From Bdellovibrionales bacterium (lineage in GTDB: Bacteria; Bdellovibrionota; Bdellovibrionia; Bdellovibrionales; UBA1609), in the NCBI GenBank assembly GCA_007128005.1, contig SKYF01000094.1:1-35080 (forward strand): DNA of 35,080 nt, given 5' to 3'. Below the pieces are notes generated by a model. That model was not told where the DNA came from. It worked only from the letters and a program-made list of their open reading frames with translations, and did not search any database. Shown here one piece after another: positions 1,253 to 35,080 of this stretch. Position 1 is the first letter of the stretch; every line of letters begins with the position of its first letter. The translations under genes were made by a program, and so were the position numbers.

Positions 1253-1314
1253 CGTGCTTAAAATGGAGTTGACTCCAAAATAAGCGTGCTTAAAATGGAG
1301 TTGACTCCAAAATA
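1253..1314. repeat. Two direct copies of a 30-bp unit, each with a TGGAGT/ACTCCA dyad
   Basis: Two identical 30-bp copies occupy 1253-1282 and 1285-1314, with a 32-bp period. Each contains the dyad TGGAGT-TG-ACTCCA. They end about 30 bp before the ATG of the AAA ATPase. Each copy also spells the same minimal ORF, ATG plus five codons (MELTPK), ending in TAA at 1281-1283 and TAG at 1313-1315. A double operator for autoregulation of the ATPase is the simplest reading; leader peptides or a target site of a mobile unit are alternatives. Confidence 0.85.
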
Positions 1315-1343
1315 GTCAGAGGTTTAAGAGAGGGGATCAAAAC

Positions 1344-2471
1344 ATGAAGAGGCGCTACCTGGCTTCGACAATCGAGGATTTTTTAACGGACCGGATGGTT
1401 TTTTTAGGGGGGCCAAGACAAGTGGGAAAAACGACACTTTGTCTGAGTTTCCTTAAAAACAAAAGTGTGCGAAGCCCCGCCTACCTCAACTGGGATGATG
1501 TGTCTTCGCGGGCAGCGCTTCGTCGGGGGCAACTGCCTCCAGATCCGCTTCTGGTCATAGATGAAATACATAAATATAAACTATGGAGAGGTTTGATCAA
1601 AGGTTTTTATGATAAAAATAAGGGATATCAAAACTACCTTATCACAGGATCCGCCCGTCTGGACTACTATCGGAAAGGGGGAGATTCCTTGCTCGGGCGT
1701 TACCGCTACCTCAGGCTTCATCCATTCTCGGTTAACGAGGCAAAAATCACAACGGCCTCAGATTTCAAAGCCCTCTTGAAATTTGGAGGCTTTCCAGAGC
1801 CCTTCCTTCGTCAGTCTGAAAAGGAACAGAGGCTATGGTGTAGAGAAAGACTCTACCGCATTGTAAACGATGACATCAGTGATATGGAAAATTTAAAAGA
1901 CTACTCTCGACTGGAAACTCTTGCAGAGTCTTTAAACGGGAGGGTTGGGTCCTTGTTATCCCTTAAATCTCTAGAGGAGGATCTGCAAGTTTCTCAGAAA
2001 ACCATCGCCCATTGGGTGGAAATTTTGGAGCGGGTATATTACCTGTTTCGCATTTATCCTTATGGAGCCCCCAAAATTCGAGCTCTTAAGAAGGCTTCAA
2101 AGGTTTACCTATGGGATTGGGGGGAGGTTGAGGACTCTGGTGCTCGCTTTGAGAACCTTGTAGCTAGTCACCTATTAAAATATTGCCATTATCTTGAAGA
2201 CACAGAAGGAGAGAAAATGGAATTGAGGTACTTGAAGGACACGAGTCAAAGGGAAGTAGATTTTGTTCTACTGAGAAACAAGAAGCCTCTATTTGCAATA
2301 GAATGCAAGTCAGGAGAGAAGCAGGTCTCAAAGTCCATTTTATATTTTAAAGAGAGAACATCTATTCCACGCTTTTACCAAGTCCACTCTGGAAAGTCAG
2401 ACTACCTCAGTCGAGAGGGTGTGCGAGTCCTACCCTTTACTAAGCTGTGTCATGAGTTAAAACTTGTCTAG
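1344..2471 (+). CDS. AAA-type ATPase with C-terminal DUF4143 / PD-(D/E)XK-like domain
   Basis: The 375-residue protein has Walker A GGPRQVGKTT (residues 22-31), Walker B LLVIDE (69-74) and a sensor-like TGSARLD (about 101-107). It then has a winged-helix-like segment around 200-235 and a C-terminal half with EVDF (D306) followed by IECK (E320, K322), the spacing expected of a PD-(D/E)XK nuclease-like core. This is the architecture of the widespread and poorly understood AAA_14/DUF4143 family. The ATG has an AGGGG Shine-Dalgarno about 9 nt upstream. The gene looks more A+T-rich than its neighbours and is single and flanked by genes on the other strand, so recent acquisition is likely (inference). 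Its last 32 bp overlap the convergent HTTM gene. Family members are often carried as solitary mobile genes; their biochemical role is not settled. Confidence 0.88.
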   Translation: MKRRYLASTIEDFLTDRMVFLGGPRQVGKTTLCLSFLKNKSVRSPAYLNWDDVSSRAALRRGQLPPDPLLVIDEIHKYKLWRGLIKGFYDKNKGYQNYLITGSARLDYYRKGGDSLLGRYRYLRLHPFSVNEAKITTASDFKALLKFGGFPEPFLRQSEKEQRLWCRERLYRIVNDDISDMENLKDYSRLETLAESLNGRVGSLLSLKSLEEDLQVSQKTIAHWVEILERVYYLFRIYPYGAPKIRALKKASKVYLWDWGEVEDSGARFENLVASHLLKYCHYLEDTEGEKMELRYLKDTSQREVDFVLLRNKKPLFAIECKSGEKQVSKSILYFKERTSIPRFYQVHSGKSDYLSREGVRVLPFTKLCHELKLV

Positions 2472-34850: not shown

Positions 34851-35080
34851 CGGTTGGCGGTTGGCGGTTGGCGGTTGGCGGTTGGCGGTTGGCGGTTGGC
34901 GGTTGACGGTTGACGGTTGTCGGTTGTCGGTTGTCGGTTGGCGGTTGACGGTTGACGGTTGACGGTTGGCGGTTGACGGTTGACGGTTGACGGTTGACGG
35001 TTGTCGGTTGTCGGTTGTCGGTTGTCGGTTGTCGGTTGTCGGTTGTCGGTTGTCGGTTGTCGGTTGTCGGTTGTCGGTTG
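34851..35080. repeat. Heptanucleotide tandem repeat (CGGTTGN), truncated by window edge
   Basis: There are 32 complete units plus 6 bases, perfect except for the last base of each unit. In order these are seven G, two A, three T, one G, three A, one G, four A and eleven T, then the edge. The minus strand has no stop codon in any frame across the array, while the plus strand meets TGA in the A units. The size and single-base variation resemble the short tandemly repeated repetitive (STRR) heptamers of cyanobacteria; the sequence is unrelated as far as I can tell. Confidence 0.97.

Follow-up and report, generated by a model that had tools for sequence, protein, structure and literature searches.

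The C proteins of restriction-modification systems are small repressors that act at autoregulated palindromic operators, PD-(D/E)XK restriction endonucleases read palindromes as dimers, and the Orc1/Cdc6 origin initiators carry two DNA-contacting modules per protein. In the excerpts cited here, PDC-S01 joins an ATPase domain to a PD-(D/E)XK member and is the fourth most frequent (candidate) defence across prokaryotes (PMC12988326), and a prevalent defence candidate (PMC12988326, PMC13356809). In an Argonaute-bearing strain of Thermus, an AAA_14/DUF4143 gene is upregulated 6.6-fold with plasmid DNA (PMC4406477). The literature searched gives no function for AAA_14/DUF4143 proteins, and neither an operator, autoregulation nor a DNA-reading code was found for them in the open-access literature searched.

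The locus described here lies near the start of the window, that is, the whole stretch of 35,080 nucleotides from a Bdellovibrionales bacterium (contig SKYF01000094.1) that was analysed, and it encodes a protein of this kind. The features of the gene are as follows.

1344 to 2471, forward strand: AAA_14 (PF13173) and DUF4143 (PF13635) protein of 375 amino acids, PADLOC phage-defence candidate PDC-S01
Protein residues ~1-130, ~187-245 and ~246-375: AAA+, wHTH and PD-(D/E)XK domains
1989 to 2000, forward strand: codons for V216 to K219 (V-S-Q-K), where the recognition helix of the wHTH begins (helix 218-230 in the model)
2241 to 2246, forward strand: codons for T300 and S301, in the hairpin turn that immediately precedes E304-x-D306 in the nuclease fold

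The domains are read from secondary structure, Pfam matches and conserved motifs. Both Pfam domains score above their curated cut-offs (97.2 bits against 28.1 for PF13173 and 80.6 against 27 for PF13635), and the PDC-S01 models of PADLOC are matched with a best E-value of 1.2e-51, six further PDC-S01 models being matched as well. AlphaFold2, which was run on the window and the genome loci with plasmid records set aside, returns a confident model (pLDDT 91.6, pTM 0.92), and no solved structure is matched by sequence. The Walker A/B residues G23, G28, K29, T30, D73 and E74 are invariant among 54 aligned sequences, as are the nuclease-motif residues E304, D306, E320 and K322; the PD-(D/E)XK domain is apparently intact, and a match to HSDR_N is weak at 21.6 bits, below its cut-off. 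The named relatives of the protein come mostly from metagenome-assembled genomes (MAGs) of Bdellovibrionota and Desulfobacterota.

The original prediction placed two identical 30-bp palindromic repeats, 32 bp apart, upstream of this gene, and both are there: CGTGCTTAAAATGGAGTTGACTCCAAAATA, read by eye, occurs at 1253-1282 and at 1285-1314, the copies being identical in 30 of 30 bp and 32 bp apart from start to start. The core of the repeats, TGGAGT-TG-ACTCCA, was said to be confined to them, and within the window TGGAGTTGACTCCA does have exact matches only at 1264-1277 and 1296-1309. Between the two copies sits a third palindrome that the original prediction had overlooked, AAGC-GT-GCTT, centred at 1286/1287, and the element is therefore an even array of alternating 16-bp half-sites and not two separate sites. 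It is composed of four such half-sites from 1255 to 1318, along which the palindromes succeed each other as A-B-A with a centre every 16 bp.

1255 to 1270, forward strand: half-site H1, TGCTTAAAATGGAGTT, from the sequence and the fit of an alternating 16-bp array
1271 to 1286, reverse strand: half-site H2, reading CGCTTATTTTGGAGTC on that strand, from the sequence and the array fit
1287 to 1302, forward strand: half-site H3, TGCTTAAAATGGAGTT, from the sequence and the array fit
1303 to 1318, reverse strand: half-site H4, reading TGACTATTTTGGAGTC on that strand, from the sequence and the array fit
1270/1271, H1/H2 junction: first A palindrome, TGGAGTTGACTCCA, from the sequence and the exact-match search
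1286/1287, H2/H3 junction: B palindrome, AAGC-GT-GCTT
1302/1303, H3/H4 junction: second A palindrome
1269 to 1274, forward strand: predicted -35 box TTGACT at the centre of the first A palindrome (promoter scan, 10/12)
1291 to 1296, forward strand: predicted -10 box TAAAAT within H3, spacer of 16 bp (promoter scan)
1331 to 1336, forward strand: probable ribosome-binding site AGGGGA, judged from the sequence

The promoter scan finds a single sigma-70-type match in the region, formed by TTGACT and TAAAAT and lying entirely within the array, and the position of the -10 box predicts a transcription start at about 1303, in the second A palindrome. Dyad-symmetric sites thus overlap the promoter of their own gene, as expected of an autoregulatory operator. 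Among the relatives an exact TTGAC coincides with an A centre (offset 0) in 22 cases, and four other offsets account for one case each. The double operator that had been proposed survives as an operator of the ATPase gene, for which the comparative evidence argues, but its unit is not a pair of palindromes in equal phase; it consists of four alternating 16-bp half-sites in which the promoter is embedded.

Relatives across phyla share the 16-bp array layout with other letters. When the palindrome is searched upstream of other DUF4143 genes, as the original prediction had proposed, the exact TGGAGT form is confined to the window gene and a few close relatives, whereas the promoter architecture, searched in generalised form, is far commoner before family genes than before controls. 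With gene starts taken as the first ATG of the frame for family and control genes alike, a best palindrome score of at least 10 is reached by 45 of 108 family genes and by 7 of 247 neighbouring genes from the same loci (Mann-Whitney p 3.6e-25). The result is replicated in loci chosen by HMM score alone (L172-L200), where 24 of 32 family genes score at least 8 as opposed to 2 of 35 controls (p 2e-8). In the ~45% of the bacterium's own genome that was covered (~1.17 Mb), the 26 family genes differ clearly from the 881 other genes (p 1.5e-9), and a DUF4143 gene lies behind each of the four most palindromic promoters. Enrichment is weaker among annotated plasmid members (13/24 against 5/32, p 0.04), several of which have no visible palindrome, and not every family member has the array. 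The period is equally distinctive: at a width of 16 bp with three alternating half-sites, 43 of the 108 family genes score higher than any of 108 controls drawn at random, while at widths of 12-15 and 17-20 bp only 0-5 do so, and palindrome centres lie 16 bp apart 65 times where 2.2 are expected from the controls. The arrays of many relatives stop at the start codon or close to it. Other DUF4143 subfamilies often have a single palindrome of 33-41 bp at the start codon and are less uniform. The plasmid members L167, L168, L170 and L354 (Alphaproteobacteria, Acidithiobacillus) have in common palindromes of the CCTTGCAAAT...ATTGCAAGG type, about 39 bp long, which abut the DUF4143 start codon.

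The letters of the half-site vary together with particular residues of the encoded protein. In 55 genes the strongest corrected mutual-information pairs link residue 300 with half-site position 4 and residue 219 with position 11. When some 340 variable columns are ranked as predictors in 65 pooled genes of less than 80% identity, with correction for overall identity, residue 219 (K219 here) is the best single predictor of positions 11-12 and residue 216 (V216) of position 10, while residue 300 or 301 (T300, S301) best predicts positions 1-3. Positions 4 and 5 are better predicted in the same 65 genes by residues 248, 204 and 348, so that residues 300-301 may not be the sole reader of the left end. 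Between pairs of genes whose proteins are 45-65% identical, sharing residue 219 goes with a 58-61% match at positions 11-12, against 19-23% otherwise, and sharing residues 300 and 301 goes with a 90-91% match at positions 1-4, against 48-54%. The crossed pairings, residue 219 with the left end and residues 300-301 with the right end, have no effect, which amounts to a double dissociation; a restricted permutation, which only approximates a phylogenetic correction, gives p 0.002 (its floor) for each of the two direct pairings and 0.96-0.99 for the crossed ones. Score thresholds, the filters (m of at least 39 or 40) and the 80% redundancy cut were single choices set by hand. Mantel correlations were dropped as evidence, since shared descent alone can produce them.

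At residue 219, lysine goes with GG, histidine with GC, proline with AA and arginine mostly with GT. By inspection, genes fetched after the first scan pair SQKT or TQKT with GGAGT, SPHT with GCAGT, NFRT with GTAGT and SQPT with AAAGT, although these genes are related to the training genes and the half-sites of L324, L333, L334 and L344 are nearly identical to those in the training set. As the operator letters vary with specific amino acids, the presumed DNA-reading code can in part be deduced. It had been suggested that the palindrome is the recognition site of the nuclease-domain protein, and the covariation of operator letters with residues of both the wHTH and the nuclease-like domain supports this; the strength of the covariation makes the product of the gene itself the most likely protein to recognise the site.

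Judging from sequence comparison, it is highly probable that the array serves the ATPase gene as a self-specific operator within its promoter, where two domains of the gene's own product read it, most likely for autorepression. One protein unit would bind each 16-bp half-site, its winged helix reading the right end (positions 10-15, here TGGAGT) and the hairpin turn of its PD-(D/E)XK domain the left end (positions 1-6, here TGCTTA). Units would bind the two strands alternately, so that two winged helices would face each other at every A palindrome and a pair of nuclease-like domains at B, and binding may be cooperative. Because the -35 box, the -10 box and the start all lie inside the array, its occupation should block RNA polymerase, which makes negative autoregulation the likeliest outcome, although activation may take the place of repression. 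Repression of this kind would limit the amount of an ATPase-nuclease that may be dangerous, until the protein is titrated away or its state is changed, possibly by an inducing signal. Gene and operator would form a self-contained cassette in which the operator letters drift together with the residues that read them.

Such a cassette is also suggested by the distribution of the gene. When the first 5 kb of the window are compared by blastn with 87 loci, the longest match (L321) spans 1264-2462, starting in the operator and breaking off shortly before the stop codon, and the DNA similarity to L322 likewise begins at 1264 within the operator; in the same comparison none of the window neighbours tested is found in either locus. 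The gene appears mobile, and together with its operator it has the look of a cassette that can be transferred. In G001, a genome of the same genus, the HTTM neighbour is present with no DUF4143 gene next to it; as the gene that flanks the other side is missing there too, this does not make a clean empty site. DUF4143 genes are found in 171 of 291 genomes of the phylum, with up to 84 candidates in one genome, a first-look figure, since at most 12 per genome were scored. A phage origin has no support, as viral contigs yielded no relative and only 5 phage records came up. A transposon or insertion sequence was rejected, given that the half-site is found in exact form only upstream of the gene and, with up to 3 mismatches, has no match near its 3' end. 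Two plasmid relatives have settings of their own: in a Candidatus Bandiella plasmid (L160:1201-2223) the relative is annotated as two reading frames, an AAA part and a DUF4143 part, flanked on either side by toxin-antitoxin genes, and in an Arcobacter cloacae plasmid (L356:541-1800) a DUF4143 gene with a palindrome upstream lies between cas3 and cas4. At the other end of the window a tandem array of the 7-bp unit CGGTTGT (34851-35080, about 33 copies, 96% matches) reaches the contig end.

A conserved nuclease active site on the promoter of its own gene counts against the autorepressive operator, as the absence of cutting needs explaining. It is conceivable, if unlikely, that each PDC-S01/DUF4143 gene is a single-gene cassette with a private address, that the B palindrome is a true recognition site for cutting or nicking, and that the protein surveys or acts on DNA that bears this address; in that case defence would come as a by-product, or the elements would be selfish in part. 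It is improbable that the array, instead of serving transcription, is cleaved or nicked by the nuclease domain of the protein to bring about mobility, copy control or self-destruction. In favour of that reading are the invariance of E304, D306, E320 and K322, the covariation of the loop just before these residues with the left half-site, the resemblance of gene and operator to a transferable cassette and the tens of family candidates in some genomes of the phylum. However, in dozens of genomes neither the array nor the gene next to it is damaged, the array is locked to the -35 box, and the operator of the window gene has no match elsewhere in the genome. The 14-base half-site GCTTAAAATGGAGT has two exact occurrences in the whole of its own genome, both in the array, and with up to 2 mismatches it gives 28 matches as compared with 20 for the reversed pattern, which is near chance. 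The two other TGGAGTNNACTCCA matches in the genome (contigs C11 and C164) both lie inside long open reading frames. The whole-genome search for the exact TGGAGT palindrome found no wider regulon: every further match looks like chance and lies within a reading frame.

Dedicated repressors are the usual readers of palindromic operators, and a separate host regulator could in principle bind these sites in place of the encoded protein. This is very improbable, as the letters of each operator track residues in the protein of the gene beside it, separately for each domain. The paralogues of one genome, moreover, carry mostly different operators, in a comparison that covered ~45% of the genome (~1.1 Mb) with operator strings copied by hand, and a matching number of regulators would be needed for them. 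The bacterium has about 25 DUF4143 genes, most with a different palindrome near the start codon. Several of these genes are clustered, three on contig C157 within 8 kb and two each on C62, C142 and C170. Inverted repeats can also fold as RNA, yet there is very little likelihood that the array acts as a hairpin, riboswitch or attenuator, given that H1-H3 precede the predicted start (about 1303), that the array has no Rfam match and that it stops at the start codon or close to it in many relatives. Short two-copy repeats often arise by chance, but chance or generic promoter symmetry has a negligible claim here when control genes from the same loci and genome have no array and the covariation is domain-specific.

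If the array is a self-specific operator, the covariation provides a concrete candidate DNA target for many AAA_14/DUF4143 proteins together with a partly readable specificity code, and with a candidate site known, binding, regulation and nuclease activity become testable at once. About 25 genes with mostly different operators in one genome would constitute a natural set of orthogonal protein-operator pairs.

The window protein matches the PDC-S01 models, and in the excerpts cited above PDC-S01 is treated as a defence candidate, with no mention of an operator, autoregulation or a DNA-reading code. With the Orc1/Cdc6 origin initiators it shares an AAA+ domain followed by a winged helix, and its best PDB fold match is 2qby, Orc1/Cdc6 on origin DNA (E 3.2e-6). 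The fold matches are partial and the TM-score for 2qby is only 0.28, the initiators have no nuclease domain and act in replication, and the similarity is one of parts of the fold and is not evidence of common function. As in PD-(D/E)XK restriction endonucleases, a nuclease-fold loop beside the catalytic residues appears to read a palindrome, but here the site is preserved within the promoter of the gene itself, and the window has no methyltransferase gene next to it. The arrangement is also reminiscent of the C proteins, in which paired palindromes extend across the -35 and -10 boxes of the regulator's own gene and guard a nuclease-linked activity. In contrast to these, the presumed regulator is the ATPase-nuclease itself, and its half-site is 16 bp long, is apparently read by two separate domains and varies in its letters from gene to gene within one genome.
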